Source: Acidimicrobiaceae bacterium (GTDB lineage Bacteria > Actinomycetota > Acidimicrobiia > Acidimicrobiales > Poriferisodalaceae). Taken from it: a stretch of 64,000 nt of DNA. Both the position numbers and the translations under genes were made by a program. Under the pieces are notes generated by a model. The model had not been told where the DNA came from. It worked only from the letters and a program-made list of their open reading frames with translations, and did not search any database. The stretch spans positions 85,570-149,569 of the forward strand of contig PBKA01000003.1 in NCBI GenBank assembly GCA_002721305.1, given 5' to 3'. Positions 10,381 through 18,205 of the stretch are shown here, one piece after another. How positions within the stretch are numbered: position 1 is the stretch's first letter; the number at the start of each line of letters is the position of its first letter.

Positions 10381-11385
10381 GTGATCGACTTAAGATCTGA
10401 CACAGTTTCTCGTCCCACCGACGCAATGCGTAAGGCTATGTCTGCCGCTGAGGTGGGTGATGACGTCTTCGGAGATGATCCGACTGTCCGTGATCTAGAG
10501 CATCACGTGGCTGAATTGTTAGGCAAAGAAGCTGCGGTGTTTGTTTCGTCTGGCACACAATCAAACCTCTGTGCCTTGATGGCTCATTGCCAACGCGGAG
10601 ACGAGTACCTAGTCGGCGATCATGCTCACACCTACATGTACGAGGGCGGCGGTGCTGCAGTGTTAGGAAGCATTCAACCTCAAACTATTCCGATGCTCGA
10701 CTCGGGAATGCTGGACCTCGAAGCAGCACGCTCCGCGATAAAGCCCCATGATTCTCATTTCGCACGAACACGCCTTCTTTGTCTGGAAAACACGACCGAT
10801 GGAAAAGTTGTGGGACTTGGAGACCTCGAAGCCGGACGAGATCTAGTTGACGAGCACAATTTGGGTTACCACCTTGATGGAGCCCGGCTCTGGAACGCTG
10901 CGGTTGCGCTAGCAGTTAACCCAGCAGAAGTCGCTGCCCCATTTGACACCGTGTCGGTATGTCTTTCCAAAGGCTTGGGAGCGCCGATTGGTTCAGTGTT
11001 AGTAGGCCCAGGCGAACTCATAAGTGAAGCACGAAAGTGGCGAAAGATGCTTGGTGGGGCGATGCGTCAAGTGGGATTAATTGCCGCTGCAGGTAAGCAC
11101 GCCGTCGAGAACCACATCGAACGCCTCGCCGAGGATCATCACAATGCGGAACGGCTTGCTGAGGGCCTTGAAGCCATCGACAACATAGAAGTTGAAGCGC
11201 AGAACACCAACATGGTTTTCGTCAGAGCATCTCGCGACATCGGCGATTTGGAAGACCGGTTGCGGAACCAAGGTCTTCTCACAAGGTGGGCTGGCCCAAG
11301 CAGCCGCATGGTTGTCCACCTTGACGTCACAACGAACGACGTGGATCGGGCGGTTAGTTTGATTGCAGAAGAGCTAGGTGGCTAA
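10381..11385 (+). CDS. ltaE: Low-specificity L-threonine aldolase
   Basis: A 334-residue PLP enzyme of fold type I that cleaves L-threonine or L-allo-threonine to glycine and acetaldehyde. The start MIDLRSDTVSRPT (GTG codon) is the family signature, followed by GDDVFGDDPTV, VSSGTQSNL, and the PLP lysine in VSVCLSKGLGAPIGS near residue 200. YHLDGARLWNAA carries the Asp that pairs with the PLP ring nitrogen. Length matches the family. It diverges from the TauD gene and is convergent with the large monooxygenase gene, whose stop it overlaps by four bases. There is no obvious operon partner. Function is likely central glycine/threonine metabolism. Confidence 0.93.
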   Translation: MIDLRSDTVSRPTDAMRKAMSAAEVGDDVFGDDPTVRDLEHHVAELLGKEAAVFVSSGTQSNLCALMAHCQRGDEYLVGDHAHTYMYEGGGAAVLGSIQPQTIPMLDSGMLDLEAARSAIKPHDSHFARTRLLCLENTTDGKVVGLGDLEAGRDLVDEHNLGYHLDGARLWNAAVALAVNPAEVAAPFDTVSVCLSKGLGAPIGSVLVGPGELISEARKWRKMLGGAMRQVGLIAAAGKHAVENHIERLAEDHHNAERLAEGLEAIDNIEVEAQNTNMVFVRASRDIGDLEDRLRNQGLLTRWAGPSSRMVVHLDVTTNDVDRAVSLIAEELGG

Positions 11386-13301
11386 TCCGCCACTAATTCG
11401 GCAACCGGTTCGGTCCAATAATCTGCCAGATTTGCTTCTCGAGTCATCGCATAAAAGTCGACGTTACGCCAAGGCGAGTTGACGACAATTCGTCCCCGTT
11501 CATTTCGGTAGTAGGAAGTCATTCCTGGGTGGGTCCAGACCATTTGTTCGTGAGCACGGTCAACGTCATCGTTGTACGCGTCGTGAACGTCTTGACGAAT
11601 TTCGACTGCTCCCACGTCTTGGTCAAGCATTTTTTGGATTATGTCCATGATGTACCTGACTTGCATCTCAACCACGAAGATGAGGCTCCCCCCATGGCCC
11701 GGTTGGAGATTCGGACCGTACAAGGTGAAGAAGTTGGGGAAGTTAGGAACAACCGTACCTAGGTACGCCTGAGCGTTATCTCGCTCCCATTGGGTCGTCA
11801 GAGACGTACCTGACCGACCTTTCGCTTCATACGTGGTAATAAAATTGAGAACATCGAAGCCAGTTGCTATTACCAAAACATCGGCCTCGTATTCGCTGCC
11901 GTCAGTTGTGTAAAGACACGTGGAGTCGATCTTGTCGACGTGCTCATCGACCAAAGTGACCTTTGGGTTTCGCAACATGCGATACCAACCGTTGTCCATG
12001 AGCATCCTCTTACCAAAGGGCGGATAGGTCGGTAGAACCCGATCAAGGAGTTCAGGTGCTTTATCGCCCAATTCGTTGATCACGTAGTCGGTGAAGTACG
12101 CCCGGTGGGCGTCATTTTGGGCATTCAGCGATCTTTCCGGATGCTCCCACTCTGGGTCTCTTTGGAGTGCTGAATGGATCCGATCGTTGAACGTCCAGCC
12201 GAGTCGAACTCGGTACCAATTCCTATAAAGCGGTACTTCGCGCAGCAAAAACCGGAGGGGCTCTGGGACCTCTTTCCGGAACTGCTCGAAGGGGGCGGCC
12301 CAGTGAACTGATTTTTGGAAAATAGTCAGCGAATTCACTTCATCTTGAATTTCTGGACCAATTTGCATACAGCTGGCACCGTTTCCGATAACCGCTACGT
12401 TTTTCCCGGTAAGGTCCGCATCGGCCGGCCACCGAGCCGTGTGCCATTTCTCTCCTTCCCATTCCTCGAGGCCCTCGATATCTGGGAAAACGGGTGGATT
12501 GAAGATTCCAGCCGCGCTAATTACAACGTTGGCTTCGACTTTTTCCGCACTGCCGTCGGGTAGGCGGAGCACCGCAAGCCATTTTTGTTGGTCGGCATCA
12601 TATTCAATGAGTTCCACCGCTGTTTCGAATCGAATGAAGTCGCGCACCTCAAAGCTGTCACAGACGTGTTCTAGGTATCCATGCAACTCGTCACGTAAGC
12701 AGAAGTATTTTTGCCAGTCGTAGGGAGCAAAGGAGTAGGAATAGAGATGGTTCGGGGTGTCTACACCAGCCCCCGGGTAGCGGTTCTCCCACCAAACTCC
12801 CCCCACCGTTGAGTTACGTTCTACAACCTGAAAGTTGATACCGAGCATCTGAAGGTTGATAGCTGCACATAGTCCCGAGACCCCCGCGCCGATGATCAGG
12901 ACACTGAAATCCTCCGGTGAGGTCACGGTCTCATGATCAAGAAACTTCACTTGTCCCAGCTGGGCCGCTGTGAACTGGCCATATTCAGACGGAACGGCTT
13001 CCGCCATGGAAACACTGAGCATCTTGACGATGAGGTCATCGTCAGGTTCAGGGAGGGCAATAGGACGGCCTTCTCTCCAGGCCAGTATCGCCTCAAGTGC
13101 TGCCTCGCGAACTTCTAGTTGATGTTCAGGATTAAGACCACCGGTGTCATTATCCCCTAATCCGGGTTGTCGCTTAGGTAGATAGGGTTCGTCCAGCCAA
13201 TGAAGTTCACCTGTCAGTTGCACCAGCACCATAAGTAGGGTCGGGATATTCGCAACTTTGATCGCTTCGGCGAAGATTTGCTCGTCGGGCTTAGTGTTCA
13301 T
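11382..13301 (-). CDS. Flavin Baeyer-Villiger monooxygenase with N-terminal extension (HAPMO-like)
   Basis: A 639-residue FAD/NADPH monooxygenase. The FAD Rossmann motif Gly138-x-Gly140-x-x-Gly143 (VLIIGAGVSG) comes only after about 130 residues. This helical extension resembles that of 4-hydroxyacetophenone monooxygenase. GGVWWENRYPGAGVDTP is the typical flavin-contact segment. WEGEKWHTARWP is the Baeyer-Villiger fingerprint (FxGxxxHxxxWP) with Trp in place of Phe. The NADPH Rossmann motif NVAVIGNGASCMQ follows. Such enzymes insert oxygen next to a ketone, giving esters or lactones. Next upstream, on the opposite strand, is the five-gene operon with the linalool dehydratase/isomerase-like protein and a lactonase, so a shared terpenoid ketone route is conceivable but unproven. 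Confidence 0.9.
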   Translation of the reverse strand: MNTKPDEQIFAEAIKVANIPTLLMVLVQLTGELHWLDEPYLPKRQPGLGDNDTGGLNPEHQLEVREAALEAILAWREGRPIALPEPDDDLIVKMLSVSMAEAVPSEYGQFTAAQLGQVKFLDHETVTSPEDFSVLIIGAGVSGLCAAINLQMLGINFQVVERNSTVGGVWWENRYPGAGVDTPNHLYSYSFAPYDWQKYFCLRDELHGYLEHVCDSFEVRDFIRFETAVELIEYDADQQKWLAVLRLPDGSAEKVEANVVISAAGIFNPPVFPDIEGLEEWEGEKWHTARWPADADLTGKNVAVIGNGASCMQIGPEIQDEVNSLTIFQKSVHWAAPFEQFRKEVPEPLRFLLREVPLYRNWYRVRLGWTFNDRIHSALQRDPEWEHPERSLNAQNDAHRAYFTDYVINELGDKAPELLDRVLPTYPPFGKRMLMDNGWYRMLRNPKVTLVDEHVDKIDSTCLYTTDGSEYEADVLVIATGFDVLNFITTYEAKGRSGTSLTTQWERDNAQAYLGTVVPNFPNFFTLYGPNLQPGHGGSLIFVVEMQVRYIMDIIQKMLDQDVGAVEIRQDVHDAYNDDVDRAHEQMVWTHPGMTSYYRNERGRIVVNSPWRNVDFYAMTREANLADYWTEPVAELVAD

Positions 13302-13481
13302 TCTTAATTACCCAGATCTCGAAGGTTCTTACCAATCAAGATATCTCCTCGGATCTCGTCGAGGTGGAGTTGTTCGTTTTTAGAGTGAACAGAAATCTAT
13401 TTTTACTTCGGTGTCCCCAATTGCATCTCTTTTCGTCTTATATGTCGGCACAAGTTGACTGACGTGCGACAGAATCCTCCT

Positions 13482-14366
13482 ATGACAGATTCGACTGTGG
13501 AATCGGTTGCGTTCGTTGGGCTCGGCGCTATGGGAGGGCCAATGTGCGCCAACCTTACGGCCAAATCACCTGTTCCTGTCCTCGCACACGATCTCGATTC
13601 GGATGCCGTAAGAAGAGCGGTCGAAGCTGGAGCCATAGCTGCTACAGGTCTAGAAAACATTGCCAGCGCGGACATAGTTTTCGTCTGTGTCCCTGGAGAA
13701 GAAGAGACAAGAGCGGTTTGTCTCGCCGAAAATGGGCTCTGTCAAAACGCGCGGGAGGGTCAAGTTGTCGTGGACTGCACCACCGCGACGGTCAGAGTCA
13801 ACCTTGATGTAGCCGAAGCGTTGAAAGCACGCGGCGCTAATTTCGCTGACGCTCCAGTAGCTCGCGGTGTTCCAAATGCAGTAGAGGGAACACTGTCCAT
13901 CACAGTAGGCGGGGATAAAGAAGTCTTCGATCGGATTGCTCCGTGGTTGGGATATATGGGTTCCGACGTTGCATACTGTGGTCCCGTTGGAACCGGAACG
14001 GTCATAAAACTCATGAACAATATGGTGCTGTTCGAGAACGTGTCAGCTTTGGCTGAAGCGATGGCAATCGCTACCAAAGCAGGCGTTAGCCGCGGCCGCG
14101 TCTTTGACCTGTTGGGTCAGGGGTCAGCGGACAGTTTCGCTCTTCGGCGTCATGGCGCATTTATGACAACCGGTGACTACCCCGCTGACCGTTTCCCCAC
14201 AAGCTATTCGGTAAAGGACCTCGACTACGCTCTGGCGTTGGCGGACGAAGTCAACGTGGATGCGGCTGGCGCTCGTCTAGTTCGAGAGCGTTTTGCCGAA
14301 GTGGTGGATCGTGGCCTTGGGCACCTATATTCGCCAGTCGTCTACGAATTGTTTGAAAACGAATGA
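13482..14366 (+). CDS. 3-Hydroxyisobutyrate dehydrogenase-family oxidoreductase
   Basis: About 294 residues from ATG 13482; a TTG at 13455 gives nine more. The NAD(P) Rossmann motif FVGLGAMGGPMCANL is at the start. DAPVARGVPNAVEGTLSITVGG matches the substrate-binding motif DAPVSGG, and TVIKLMNNM contains the catalytic Lys. These beta-hydroxyacid dehydrogenases oxidise or reduce short hydroxy acids. Arg replaces Ser in the DAPVxxG segment, so substrate choice may differ from true 3-hydroxyisobutyrate. It is the first gene of the 13.5-18.2 kb plus-strand operon, and its stop overlaps the next start as ATGA, a sign of translational coupling. Its promoter should lie in the 180-base gap after the divergent monooxygenase gene. 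Confidence 0.88.
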   Translation: MTDSTVESVAFVGLGAMGGPMCANLTAKSPVPVLAHDLDSDAVRRAVEAGAIAATGLENIASADIVFVCVPGEEETRAVCLAENGLCQNAREGQVVVDCTTATVRVNLDVAEALKARGANFADAPVARGVPNAVEGTLSITVGGDKEVFDRIAPWLGYMGSDVAYCGPVGTGTVIKLMNNMVLFENVSALAEAMAIATKAGVSRGRVFDLLGQGSADSFALRRHGAFMTTGDYPADRFPTSYSVKDLDYALALADEVNVDAAGARLVRERFAEVVDRGLGHLYSPVVYELFENE

Positions 14367-15391
14367 GTGACCTAGATCCCGAGCTGGTAGATCGGGCAGT
14401 GCAGTTGGCCGACGACCATCTTTTCCCCGCTGCACTCGAGGTTGATGCCTTGGGCACAGTTCCCCGCCCACAACTCGATCTTGTCCGCGACGCCGGTTTT
14501 CACGGCCTTTTCGCCCCCGCTGAATTTGGTGGCTTAGGCGCGTCACCCCAAACTCAGTGGGCTGTTCATGAGTCGTTGTCGGGGGGTTGCCTGACAACAA
14601 GTTTCGTTTGGGCTCAACATGCTGGGCCCAGTAAAGCGGCCGTCGAAACGACTGGACCGATGAGAGAGCGGTGGGCAGAGGCTCTAGCCACTGGAGAGTC
14701 CCAGGGAGGAGTGGCCTTCGCTCACTTGAATCGACCTGGTACCCCTATCCTCCAAGCGGAACCTCACAGCGGCGGATGGAGGTTCTCGGGGTCAGCTCCA
14801 TTCGTAACAGGGTGGGGCCACATAGACGTTGTACTGACCGCCGCACGACATAAGGATTCAGTGGTTTGGGCGTTGATCGAAGCCCGAGACTGCGAGACAA
14901 TCACCAGTCGCCGCCTGTCATTGGCTGCCATCGACTCAGCCGTGACCGTCGAGTTGACTTTCGATAACCATCCAGTCACAAAAGCGTCAGTGACCTCAGT
15001 GGAAGGCTTCGATCAATGGACCGAGCGTTACCGAAAGGGTCTTCGCGCCAACGGGTCCAATCCTCTTGGAGTTGCCTCTCGAGCAACAAAGTTGTTGGGG
15101 CCGAGCCCCTTGGATACCCAACTTGTCGATGCTAGAGACCGAATCAACAACGCCAGTGTCGAAGCATTGCCCGAAGCTCGAGCTCTACTCGGTGATCTGT
15201 GCGTACGAGCAACTTCGGCCTTAGTTGCCAAGGTGGGCGGGTCCGCGCTCTTCATGGAGCAGCAAGCTCAACGGCTCGCCAGAGAGTCGCTATTCTTGCT
15301 GGTGCAAGGTCAAACACCTGAAATCAAAGAACATCACTTGAGACTCCTCACCGAGAACGCCACAGTCGGAAGGCCAAGTCGTGACAACTGA
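14363..15391 (+). CDS. Divergent acyl-CoA dehydrogenase-like flavoprotein
   Basis: A 342-residue protein with the overall acyl-CoA dehydrogenase plan: helical N domain with RDAGFHGLFAPAEFGGLG, a beta domain beginning near GVAFAHLNRPG, and a C-terminal four-helix domain. It is about 40 residues shorter than typical members. The C-terminal segment that normally reads IYEGT carries LVQGQT, so the MCAD-type catalytic Glu is replaced by Gln. The EP-AGSD flavin loop is also replaced, by LNRPGTPI. It may act on a non-CoA substrate or be a partner subunit rather than a standard dehydrogenase. It is translationally coupled to the gene before it (4-nt overlap) and overlaps the candidate selenoprotein gene by 11 nt, so it belongs to the same operon. 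Confidence 0.8.
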   Translation: MSDLDPELVDRAVQLADDHLFPAALEVDALGTVPRPQLDLVRDAGFHGLFAPAEFGGLGASPQTQWAVHESLSGGCLTTSFVWAQHAGPSKAAVETTGPMRERWAEALATGESQGGVAFAHLNRPGTPILQAEPHSGGWRFSGSAPFVTGWGHIDVVLTAARHKDSVVWALIEARDCETITSRRLSLAAIDSAVTVELTFDNHPVTKASVTSVEGFDQWTERYRKGLRANGSNPLGVASRATKLLGPSPLDTQLVDARDRINNASVEALPEARALLGDLCVRATSALVAKVGGSALFMEQQAQRLARESLFLLVQGQTPEIKEHHLRLLTENATVGRPSRDN

Positions 15392-16868
15392 CAGCCACGA
15401 AGCCCTAGACCGACGGTCCTTGGGTTGGCTCCGGTACCTATACCGCAAGGCAACGACCCCAGACAACTGGGACCGCGACGGTCAACCTCACCCTCATTGG
15501 GACAACATCACTGGACCACCAATGACCTCTTTCCACCGATTCGATCTAATCGACTCGGCATACGCGATGGCTCTCATGAGTGATCGAACTCCAGCGTGGA
15601 CAGAAGTTTATGGCCGCGTGCTAGACGAATTAGTAGCGCGTCACACATCTTGGTGGGCTGCTGAAGATTGGATGACCCAATTCGGGCCAGACCCCGATCG
15701 CGGCAGCTACCCGGAACAATATCGTCCGCTCATTCCGGCCGACCATTGGGGTAGTTACGATGTCCCTGGGTGGACAGCTAACGGCATCGAGCCTTACGGG
15801 ATACAGATGGATCCCGTGGCGGCCGACGGAATGCTCTTCTTCAAGGGGTTTTTCGGTTTACTTCTCGGATTGCACCGTTACGTTTCAAATGATTCGAAAT
15901 GGAACGAACCATTCGAAATGATCCGCGACGGAAAAAACACCTTCACCTGGACCCATTCAGGAATAATGAGCCATCTTGCTGAGCAATGGCACAGTAGACA
16001 GATGGGGTGCCATTGTGAGAACACTAAGATATGGCCCTATTGACTATCTGGAGCCGGTCTCGGTCTGAGACTTCACGACCAACTCCTCAACACCAATTTC
16101 CACTCTGCGTTCGATCACTGGTGGGAATACGCTGCGGAGAACTACATCACTTGGGATCGGGATCAAGCCATTGCTATGGACTTGTACTACGACCCAGTTG
16201 TCGACGAACACCTCAAATCCCCCGTCGGCTTGATCGCACCAACGTGGTACTTGGCTCCACAACGCCGGGAGGTGGCTGAAACGGCATGGACCTTTGGGGC
16301 CACCGCGCTCGGCCTACTCGGTGATGGCGATGTCCAACTTGCTCGAGCCCAAGATGGCATTATGCTCGCCTGGTTTACAGGCGAATTCGCTGACGGTGCT
16401 GTGAAGCGAAAGCTTTGGGATGCCTGCGACGCTCTCTTCGAACCCCGATTCGACCAGGACAGCGGCGAGTTCACTTTTAACTTTGGCTTCAACGAACCTC
16501 ACCCACGAGGCCAATGCAATGCTCGGGTTATGGCTGGCTGGGTCTGTTCTCCTGGAGCGTGGGCCAGTATCTTCACTAACCCGAATCTCACGAAACACAC
16601 TGAGCCGTGCGTCGAAGATGTCGACTTTCCACGAATCGCTATGAGTGAAGCCCACTGGGACGGAAACGCGTTGGTTCTCGCGGCCAGTGCTTGCAATGAC
16701 TCGACGAACGGGGCACGCACGACTATGCGCGTGCGTCGGCTACCTGTTGATGGGGAATGGCAACTTACTGGTTCTGACGGCACTTCGACTAGTTGTCATG
16801 TAGCAGGCGGAGAAACCGCCATCGAACTTATCGCTGACAGCTCCACCTTCACCCTTGAAGTGACATAG
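15381..16868 (+). CDS. Linalool dehydratase/isomerase-family protein with in-frame TGA, candidate selenoprotein
   Basis: Read through the TGA at 16041-16043, this is a 495-residue protein starting with GTG at 15381. Both halves belong to one linalool dehydratase/isomerase (Ldi) domain, an alpha6/alpha6 barrel. The N half has FFKGFFGLLLGLHRYVSND; the C half has the NEPHPRGQCNA motif I recall from this family. The Castellaniella enzyme interconverts myrcene, linalool and geraniol using a Cys171/Cys180 pair (numbering from memory). Here Cys212 (in CHCENTK) is followed nine residues later by the TGA codon, residue 221, exactly where the second cysteine belongs. The frame is unbroken on both sides, so this is no frameshift. 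With the hairpin that follows, selenocysteine insertion is the best explanation. A nonsense mutation or read error (TGC to TGA) is the alternative. I could not place a counterpart of catalytic His129. No signal peptide is seen, unlike the periplasmic Castellaniella protein. Substrate unknown. Confidence 0.85.
16041..16071 (+). promoter_or_regulatory. Candidate bacterial SECIS element (selenocysteine insertion hairpin)
   Basis: The TGA at 16041-16043 is followed by a hairpin with 5' arm GTCTC (16057-16061), loop GGTCT (16062-16066) and 3' arm GAGAC (16067-16071), a perfect five-base-pair stem that a G-U pair (16056 with 16072) can extend. The loop starts 18 nucleotides after the TGA. From memory, the E. 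coli fdhF SECIS has GGUCU in its apical loop at the same distance from its UGA, where SelB contacts it. Stem, loop sequence and spacing all agree. SelB carrying Sec-tRNA would act here in the cytoplasm during translation. No selA, selB, selC or selD is in the window. Confidence 0.78.
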
Positions 16869-16875
16869 TGGGGAG

Positions 16876-17850
16876 ATGACCTTGCTAGTGGAAACAGCGA
16901 CCGGTCCCATCGATGCTTCGGAGTTGGGTCGGGTCCTCATGCATGAGCATGTTTTTGTGATTTCTACCGAGATCCAGCAAAATTACCCGCAGGAGTGGGG
17001 CGACGAACAAGGCCGGATAGACGACGCTGTTTCTCGGCTCACGGAACTTAAGGACACCGGTATTGATACCATCCTTGATCCAACAGCCATAGGTCTCGGA
17101 CGCTATATACCTCGGATTCAGAGGGTCGCTGAGCAGATCGACTTAAAGATCGTCTGCGCGACCGGTCTGTACACCTTTAACGAGTTACCTCACTACTACC
17201 GTCGCCGATCTGCCTCGAGTGCTGACGCTCTGACTTTGCATTTCGTCCAAGACATCGTGGACGGTTTCGCCGACACAGGTGTCAGAGCCGGAGTAATCAA
17301 GTGCGCCACCGATAAGCCCGGTCTGACACCCGATGTGGAACGTGTGCTACGCGCTTGCGCTCAGGCGCACCGCCAGACCGGGTGCCCCATCACTACTCAC
17401 ACCAATGCTGCAACCGAACGAGGCTTAGACCAGCAAAAGATTTTTGTAGAGGAGGGAGTGGACCTCACCCGGGTCGTGATCGGTCATTGCGGAGACACAA
17501 ACGATCTCGGGTACCTTCAAAGACTTCTTGATGCCGGCAGCATTTTGGGAATGGACAGATTCGGTATCGATGGTTACCTGACCACTGCTCAGAGGGTGGA
17601 GGTGGTGGCCCAACTGTGTGACAAGGGGTATGCAGATCAGATGGTGTTGAGCCATGACGCTTCGTGTTACATCGACTGGATAGAAGGCGAAGTGCCTCTC
17701 GCTCCGCTCCCCAATTGGCATTATTTGCATATCAGCAGGGATGTCATCCCCGCTTTGTTGGAGGCAGGAGTCTCCGAAGAGCAGATAAACACGATGTTGG
17801 TGGACAACCCCAAGAGGTTTCTTGAGTCGCAAAATCTTGGCGGGTACTAG
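16876..17850 (+). CDS. Phosphotriesterase-family hydrolase (lactonase-like)
   Basis: A 324-residue TIM-barrel metal hydrolase with all ligands of the phosphotriesterase family: His23-x-His25 (LMHEHVF), bridging Lys142 (GVIKCATD), His175 (ITTHTN), His204 (VIGHCGD) and Asp261 (LSHDAS). Members of this family in bacteria are mostly lactonases, with some phosphotriesterases and amidases. A lactonase would fit an operon that degrades a cyclic or hydroxylated intermediate, perhaps a lactone made by a Baeyer-Villiger enzyme, but this is inference. It starts seven bases after the candidate selenoprotein stop, with GGGGAG directly before the ATG, and is followed after ten bases by a thioesterase gene. 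Confidence 0.9.
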   Translation: MTLLVETATGPIDASELGRVLMHEHVFVISTEIQQNYPQEWGDEQGRIDDAVSRLTELKDTGIDTILDPTAIGLGRYIPRIQRVAEQIDLKIVCATGLYTFNELPHYYRRRSASSADALTLHFVQDIVDGFADTGVRAGVIKCATDKPGLTPDVERVLRACAQAHRQTGCPITTHTNAATERGLDQQKIFVEEGVDLTRVVIGHCGDTNDLGYLQRLLDAGSILGMDRFGIDGYLTTAQRVEVVAQLCDKGYADQMVLSHDASCYIDWIEGEVPLAPLPNWHYLHISRDVIPALLEAGVSEEQINTMLVDNPKRFLESQNLGGY

Positions 17851-17860
17851 CCTCAAAGCC

Positions 17861-18205
17861 ATGAGCAAACTTGAAATAGGTGACGAGTTCAGTGACGTCG
17901 TCAAAGTCACCGACGACATGTCACCGCCACATCTTCCGAACAAAGTGCTTTCAACCCCGGACATGGTGCGCTTGATAGAAGGCACCTGCTTATTCGGGGT
18001 TCAAAATCAACTTGAAGAAAACCAGACAACGGTGGGTATTCATGTGTGTGTCAGCCATTCAGCAGCAGTTGCTTCGGGCGAGGAAGTATTGATTGAAGCT
18101 GAGTTAGCTGAAATCGACCGCAAACGCTTGGTGTTCAACATCAAAGTCACCCACGGGGAAACTTTGGTGTCCGAAGGCACCCATCAACGCTTTGTCGTGG
18201 GTTAA
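17861..18205 (+). CDS. FlK-like hotdog thioesterase
   Basis: A 114-residue hotdog-fold protein from ATG 17861; a TTG at 17822 would overlap the previous gene. It resembles fluoroacetyl-CoA thioesterase FlK: STPDMVRLIEGTC supplies Ser31/Thr32 and Glu40, and VCVSHSAAVASGE supplies His66, matching the Thr-Glu-His catalytic set of FlK. Most homologues outside fluoroacetate producers hydrolyse other small acyl-CoA esters. It closes the five-gene operon that begins at 13482, so it may release CoA from a product or a dead-end thioester. The next gene (18219) is convergent, 13 bases away, leaving little room for a terminator. Confidence 0.85.
   Translation: MSKLEIGDEFSDVVKVTDDMSPPHLPNKVLSTPDMVRLIEGTCLFGVQNQLEENQTTVGIHVCVSHSAAVASGEEVLIEAELAEIDRKRLVFNIKVTHGETLVSEGTHQRFVVG

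Follow-up and report, generated by a model that had tools for sequence, protein, structure and literature searches.

A predicted selenocysteine codon at the second active-site cysteine column of a linalool dehydratase/isomerase-superfamily gene

The window, by which we mean the whole 64,000-nt stretch of Acidimicrobiaceae bacterium DNA analyzed here, contains a gene for a protein of the linalool dehydratase/isomerase (Ldi) superfamily that has a TGA within its reading frame (Table 1). Three of the neighboring genes, encoding the hydroxyisobutyrate-dehydrogenase-like, acyl-CoA-dehydrogenase-like and phosphotriesterase-like proteins, occupy the same places in the window and in all eight close relatives (L027-L033 and L094), the FlK-like thioesterase gene is found in the window and five of these eight, and a gene for a flavin monooxygenase lies nearby on the opposite strand. 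From their sequences, the window neighbors suggest a catabolic pathway. At other loci the neighbors include an aldehyde dehydrogenase and a molybdopterin enzyme; a gene neighborhood common to the whole family was looked for and is absent, since the operon is kept in the eight close relatives and other clades differ.

Table 1. Genes and sequence features in and around the Ldi-superfamily gene (window coordinates)
Feature	Position	Strand	Remarks
3-Hydroxyisobutyrate-dehydrogenase-like protein	13455..14366	+	Terminal ATGA overlaps the start codon of the following gene
Acyl-CoA-dehydrogenase-like protein, 342 aa	14363..15391	+	PF02771; last 11 nt shared with the Ldi-like gene
Likely ribosome-binding site GGAAGG	15368..15373	+	7 nt upstream of the GTG; judged by sequence inspection
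Ldi-superfamily protein gene	15381..16868	+	GTG start, TAG stop; 495 residues with codon 221 as Sec
Cys212 codon TGT, Ldi Cys171 column	16014..16016	+	TGA instead in 22 of 87 tabulated loci
In-frame TGA, codon 221, Ldi Cys180 column	16041..16043	+	Predicted Sec codon
Predicted SECIS hairpin	16056..16072	+	Stem GGTCTC 16056-16061 with GAGACT 16067-16072; loop GGTCT 16062-16066
Phosphotriesterase-family hydrolase, possibly lactonase or esterase	16876..17850	+	PF02126; next downstream gene
FlK-like thioesterase	17822..18205	+	Overlaps the phosphotriesterase-family gene

Translation of the Ldi-like frame, with the bases rechecked, confirmed the initial annotation in that the TGA at codon 221 is its sole internal stop. 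That annotation had also assigned both sides of the TGA to one Ldi domain, and indeed only the joined frame passes the cut-off of the Pfam Ldi model PF18566 (26.1 bits): the read-through protein scores 37.5 bits, the 5′ part by itself scores 22.8 bits, and the 3′ part by itself has no match in Pfam. GC3 is 0.573 both 5′ and 3′ of the TGA. The AlphaFold2 model, computed with Cys at position 221, has a mean pLDDT of 95.2; its nearest match in the PDB is Ldi, at an identity of about 15%, and the protein is predicted to form an (alpha/alpha)6 barrel as in Ldi. In this DNA, TGA is also an ordinary stop, terminating 18 of the 42 non-overlapping window ORFs of at least 250 amino acids.

The profile alignment puts the catalytic Cys pair of Ldi, Cys171 and Cys180, on columns 212 and 221, and the pair is matched only if the TGA is counted as Sec. 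The initial annotation had given these Ldi numbers, correctly for PDB chain numbering (the two active-site Cys are numbered 170 and 179 in the accessible text of PMC6600392), and was right that Cys212 (TGT) precedes the TGA codon by nine residues. Its description of the protein as "linalool dehydratase/isomerase-type" stands for the superfamily, given the PF18566 score, but the name does not imply a shown activity: the column of Ldi His129 holds Phe157 in the window protein (profile alignment, with numbering counted from the printed alignment). We take His129 to have a catalytic role in the Ldi active site and, since it is not conserved, we class the protein in the Ldi superfamily, not as a linalool dehydratase.

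Among 120 listed protein relatives (514 were found), 119 have Cys at column 221, with the two Cys columns nine residues apart; the remaining one, P0102, is a C-terminal fragment without the column 221 region. Similarly, all 18 relatives that cover column 221 in a 20-protein alignment have Cys there (with the window's U written as C). A search with the 220-residue N-terminal part turned up 383 proteins; of the 120 listed, 119 were new, the window's own among them. Most of these new listed records (110 of 119) terminate in ENxKxWP plus one residue, one residue short of column 221, the type of stop not being visible from a protein sequence. Another, P0224, terminates directly before column 212; of the eight others, P0203 loses the frame ahead of column 221 and seven either have Cys there or extend beyond it.

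At the DNA level, TGA was present at column 221 in 80 of the 87 related loci tabulated, a share that is biased and not a frequency because the search alignment comprised six TGA sequences and a single Cys sequence and because not all of the 89 relatives found were retained. The 80 retained, the best of the 89, came from a scan of named genomes and the seven other loci from a scan of the class; some rows represent one genome in both collections (e.g., L020/L103, L022/L043, L023/L073 and L026/L101). The codon pairs at columns 212/221 are TGC/TGA (39 loci), TGT/TGA (19) and TGA/TGA (22) and, where TGA is lacking, TGC/TGC (3), TGC/TGT (1) and AGC/CAC (3). The exchange of Cys and TGA that the initial annotation had looked for in this column is thus borne out. 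Homologues with neither residue, which it had named as evidence against Sec, do exist, but in the sets covered they form just one long-branch clade of three Ser/His rows, two of them from one genome.

The class scan detected a relative in 8 of 395 genomes, with TGA at column 221 in six (our own genome included), Cys in one, and Ser together with His in one. Restriction of the TGA to our own genome is ruled out by the TGA relatives in other genomes of the class; G392 has TGA at 212 as well as at 221, and in G157 the TGA-221 gene lies in a single-contig genome. A scan of the phylum for further Cys genes gave matches in 4 of 396 genomes, our own among them. One was a TGA gene with the hairpin in G664 (L110), additional to the 87 loci, and those in G464 and G638 were weak and distant. 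The DNA-level contrast thus rests on seven non-TGA rows from six distinct genomes.

The loop of the predicted SECIS hairpin lies 18 nt after the TGA; the window has an earlier GGTCT at 12 nt, and it is the second GGTCT that forms the loop. Across 81 TGA genes (73 distinct), the six stem pairs are formed in 438 of 438 cells, compared to at most 60.3% of cells when the partners are slid, and the loop is GGTCT in 79 of the 81 (GGTAT in one, GGTTT in one). Compensatory changes are seen at pair 18-30 (C-G, U-A or G-C) and at pair 19-29 (C-G, with a single U-A). We applied five measures of covariation. The covariation score was 0.188; shuffles gave 0.080, and none of the 500 came up to the observed value. 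Two measures did not stand out and are not decisive: the pairs changed on both sides (2, reached in 9 of 500 shuffles) and the further pair types (6, reached in 143 of 500). Unprompted, RNAalifold recovered the identical six pairs, with a consensus of the 81 genes at -9.19 kcal/mol.

Codon choice is also biased at the hairpin. Among 127 conserved columns, ranks 1 to 4 for this bias fall on the hairpin codons Arg230 (AGG or AGA in 74 of 81 genes), Gly228 (GGT in 81 of 81), Leu227 (CTC in 80 of 81) and Leu229 (CTG in 79 of 81), and the remaining two hairpin codons, Gly226 and Leu231, rank 7 and 10. On this codon evidence, the hairpin is maintained by selection on synonymous sites. In the rows compared it is confined to the TGA genes, a point that the initial annotation had proposed to check: a stem of at least 6 bp is found in 81 of 81 TGA genes and in none of the seven rows without TGA, two of them from a single genome. 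In those seven rows, 3 or 4 of the six pairs form.

The published bSECIS model specifies a loop of 3-9 nt, a stem of 4-16 bp, a G in loop position 1 or 2, a spacing of 16-37 nt and a minimum free energy of -7.5 kcal/mol or lower (PMC13188914, accessible text). The window hairpin fits this model in loop, stem and spacing (our stem scan reads it as a 3-nt loop GTC closed by G-U, with a spacing of 19), and the free energy of the short hairpin alone, -7.1 kcal/mol, is borderline against the -7.5 kcal/mol limit. Taken by itself, the window hairpin is modest. The 60 nt from the window TGA reach -12.8 kcal/mol with a different best fold (z -1.12); the case for the hairpin rests on the alignment. Of 200000 synonymous resamplings, 1191 contain a hairpin of this kind. 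An Rfam scan of the whole window found nothing. A pattern search of our own genome returned the Ldi-like gene and one other place, on contig 9.

The initial annotation had named selA, selB, selC and selD as genes to look for, and all are present in the genome, a draft of 1.94 Mb in 31 contigs that is 89% complete. SelA (398.6 bits) adjoins SelB (286.6 bits) on contig 26 and SelD (355 bits), which has one in-frame TGA of its own, is on contig 22, all three above their cut-offs. Matches to tRNA-Sec lie at the ends of contig 1 (51.4 bits, above the cut-off) and contig 26 (45.1 bits), and the anticodon loop reads CTTCAAA, that is, anticodon UCA. ARAGORN reported no tRNA in the window and none at the contig-end tRNA-Sec loci L001 and L002.

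We compared SelA across 53 genomes, 46 of them with a TGA gene (45 distinct, since G392 and G423 are the same). SelA was found in all 46, above the cut-off in 45 and as a contig-end fragment in one; for comparison, SelA exceeds the cut-off in 256 of the 395 genomes scanned in the class (65%). In genomes with only a Cys gene, SelA is absent from G412, G416 and G420 and present in G142, and it is present in the Ser/His genomes. The tRNA-Sec search, which at E 0.001 matches all 14 control genomes, gave at least 63 bits in 40 of the 45 TGA genomes, 49.8 and 50.1 bits in two (cut-off 47), and values below the cut-off in G398, G408 and G422. Only the high scores count here, since matches of 47-50 bits arise as second hits and also in the Cys-only genome G412.

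The TGA members are labelled as Actinomycetota, Pseudomonadota, Myxococcota, Chloroflexota and Candidatus Tectimicrobiota, five phyla in all, although these labels are those of metagenome bins, in which a contig may be misplaced. We built a quick maximum-likelihood tree of 111 rows, which includes 32 of the 120 listed database proteins and omits nine of the 88 TGA, Cys and Ser/His rows (L033, L035, L072, L085, L096, L097, L098, L100 and L106) because they are fragments, contain runs of N, or have a frameshifted 5′ part (L072 and L106). Its states at columns 212/221 are Cys/Sec (55), Sec/Sec (17), Cys/Cys (36) and Ser/His (3), and they require a minimum of 10 changes, compared to 47.5 in shuffles. 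The Cys/Cys proteins P0105, P0107 and P0109 are nested with high support among alphaproteobacterial TGA genes, and the Ser/His clade sits on a long branch within a TGA clade with moderate support. Judging from this tree, there was probably more than one exchange between Sec and Cys.

The 22 tabulated loci with TGA at both active-site Cys columns fall on the tree as one actinobacterial set and two Chloroflexota pairs; five are outside the tree, including the deltaproteobacterial L097 and the Entotheonella L106. These genes could form an additional hairpin between the two TGAs and just beyond, its loop containing the second TGA. At this place, a stem of at least 7 bp was found in 16 of 19 distinct double-TGA genes, compared to 6 of 47 single-TGA and 1 of 6 no-TGA genes, when no loop G was required, and in 9 of 19, 2 of 47 and 1 of 6, respectively, when it was. 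The additional helix has 94% of cells paired and 0 pairs changed on both sides, and its sequence is in part dictated by the encoded amino acids. In the double-TGA genes, tandem SECIS elements are therefore an idea for which these counts are suggestive only.

Taken as a reading of these sequences, selenocysteine at the TGA is strongly supported. We consider, with a probability of about 0.85, that the gene encodes an Ldi-superfamily protein in which the TGA at the second active-site Cys is read as Sec, and that the protein likely acts in a cofactor-free (de)hydration or isomerization of an alkenol-like substrate. According to the accessible part of PMC6600392, Ala or Ser at either active-site Cys of Ldi abolishes activity, both Cys must be reduced, and the enzyme is oxygen-sensitive; acid-base catalysis and a covalent thioterpene route have been proposed, the latter disfavored by the calculations it cites. 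We propose Sec-assisted chemistry because this Cys pair is essential in Ldi and a selenol would be ionized and a better nucleophile. SelB on the GGUCU hairpin would bring Sec-tRNA(UCA) to the UGA, and the ribosome would continue to the TAG at 16866. Sec221, with a selenol pKa of about 5.2 (PMC13188914, accessible text) and hence presumably ionized at neutral pH, would flank the substrate together with Cys212, in the manner of Cys180 and Cys171 of Ldi, and the two would transfer a proton or bind the carbon skeleton covalently as water leaves or adds. Selenium would also let this oxidation-sensitive pair recover in aerobic cells, and in the 22 double-TGA relatives both active-site residues would be Sec. 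Given the identity of only about 15% and Phe157 in place of His129, the chemistry may differ from that of Ldi.

The most serious competing explanation, which we consider unlikely, accepts Sec insertion but makes the protein a redox enzyme, in which Sec221 and Cys212 likely cycle between a selenenylsulfide and the reduced state and the Ldi fold is re-used. For most catalogued selenoproteins of unassigned function, a redox role is presumed (PMC13188914, accessible text), and both residues line one active site in Ldi (PMC6600392, accessible text). Furthermore, the Ldi His129 is lost in the window protein, and several neighbors are oxidoreductases (the dehydrogenase-like proteins and the flavin monooxygenase here, the aldehyde dehydrogenase and molybdopterin enzyme elsewhere). 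However, no thioredoxin, glutaredoxin or similar thiol-partner domain was found in the four window neighbors and 20 further proteins (one of these without a Pfam match), the spacing of the two positions in the 119 listed Cys relatives is nine residues and not that of a CxxC, and the nearest solved fold is a hydratase/isomerase whose two Cys work only when reduced (PMC6600392, same text).

The explanations that dispense with Sec altogether are far weaker. That the TGA is read by another tRNA (e.g., Trp), or is a regulated termination with the 220-residue protein as the main product, is very improbable: gene callers do stop here in many public records and two products are conceivable, but the 119 listed relatives show Cys as the exchange partner, no domain is matched by the 3′ part alone, the hairpin is under synonymous-site selection, the ordinary use of TGA as a stop in the window gives no sign of general recoding, and SelA, SelB, SelD and tRNA-Sec are present in the genome. 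Even less credit is due to a nonsense change in a decaying gene or a sequencing error, for which the lone in-frame stop and the draft state of the 31-contig assembly might speak. Against this, 80 of the 87 loci, almost all of them in assemblies of their own, share the codon, as does L110; residues are conserved on both sides of it, GC3 is unchanged, and the model confidence is high. This recurrence of the TGA at one column, in loci labelled as five phyla, is far beyond chance.

Returning to the Sec-dependent hydratase/isomerase that we favor, we also put forward a broader proposal, tentatively and at somewhat less than even odds: that in a selenoenzyme family spread over at least five phyla, selenium serves C-O chemistry, acid-base or covalent, with neither a metal nor a redox cofactor, and that each UGA of the double members is decoded by its own tandem hairpin, the first holding the second UGA in its loop. 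If true, a Sec hydratase/isomerase without a cofactor would take selenium catalysis past the dominant redox roles of the catalogue, relatives with TGA at one or both positions would be a natural test of the two essential Cys of Ldi, and the double-TGA members would offer a simple system for the decoding of two close UGAs on one message.

If Sec is inserted as predicted, the 2026 catalogue lacks this selenium enzyme family, and the initial annotation likewise was aware of no described selenoenzyme of the Ldi family. Table 1 of that 2026 review, with 119 prokaryotic families and subfamilies, has no Ldi-type entry, and the main text nowhere contains "linalool", "dehydratase" or "PF18566" (PMC13188914, accessible text); the accessible part of the deep-Sep paper contains neither "linalool" nor "dehydratase". 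No NCBIfam model (June 2026) matches the protein. In the literature searched, preprints and most subscription journals aside, no paper pairs "linalool dehydratase" with "selenocysteine" or contains "PF18566". Among the matches listed for "selenoprotein" with "linalool", most concerned food, plants and health. Unknown selenoprotein families are annotated as truncated proteins, and 110 of the 119 listed database records end at just this place.

Compared to Ldi of Castellaniella defragrans (PF18566; PDB 5g1u, 5hlr and 5i3t), the window protein has a predicted Sec in place of the second Cys and, in its model, an extra strand-rich C-terminal part after about residue 406. Ldi is periplasmic (PMC6600392, accessible text), whereas inspection of the window protein revealed no evident signal peptide. 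The FdhA-like gene of our own genome has a TGA in a U-HAP motif (UHxP-type) followed 18 nt later by GGTCT, with a different 6-bp stem, while no GGTCT lies downstream of the TGA in our SelD gene. Likewise, fdhF of E. coli K-12 has GGTCT 18 nt after its TGA, a stretch that we take to be its SECIS loop, but a scripted search found no stem closed around a 5-nt loop there. Formate dehydrogenase (FdhA/fdhF) is an unrelated protein in which Sec binds Mo or W (PMC13188914, accessible text). With the catalogued prokaryotic selenoproteins, as that text describes them, the Ldi-like family has in common the UGA, a downstream hairpin of bSECIS-type loop, stem and spacing, and Cys homologues.

In a set of relatives of the Ldi-like gene (DNA loci L023, L061, L062, L067, L069, L070, L071, L073, L075, L078 and L081, and further L084-L088, L091, L096-L098, L104 and L106), both active-site cysteine columns are occupied by TGA. 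If decoded, these genes would carry two Sec residues, nine residues apart, and an additional hairpin around the second TGA is possible. We also note that some alphaproteobacterial assemblies hold several TGA genes of this family, with four in UBA2966 (L077, L082, L090, L093) and three in 277c_15 (L079, L092, L099). The two halves of Ldi-family TGA genes have been entered publicly as separate proteins, which end or start at the TGA (records P0102 and P0121-P0239).

Three loci (L026, L101 and L102) form one clade with Ser and His at the two catalytic positions, placed on a long branch within the TGA clades. SelA is retained in the genomes of this clade, whose Ldi-like proteins have likely changed function.

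Among close relatives, the flavin monooxygenase-like gene is kept close to the Ldi-like gene, and it possibly belongs to the same pathway. Elsewhere in the genome, SelD is likely a selenoprotein itself. Since an identical tRNA-Sec sequence terminates contigs C1 and C26, these two may be adjacent, with the assembly split at the tRNA-Sec gene.

Neighbouring gene and selenium-related or candidate features of the source genome
Feature	Location	Strand	Detail
Flavin monooxygenase-like gene	window 11382-13301	(-)	639 aa
FdhA-like gene (L116)	C6:142863-143309		in-frame TGA within UHAP motif
SelD (L017)	C22:5911-6852		in-frame TGA
tRNA-Sec (L001)	C1:1-88		contig end
tRNA-Sec (L002)	C26:2-74		contig end
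Second site (L108)	C9:21119-21150		TGA, 18 nt, then CTCGGTCTGAG

The FdhA-like gene and the Ldi-like gene have in common a GGTCT loop 18 nt 3' of the TGA.
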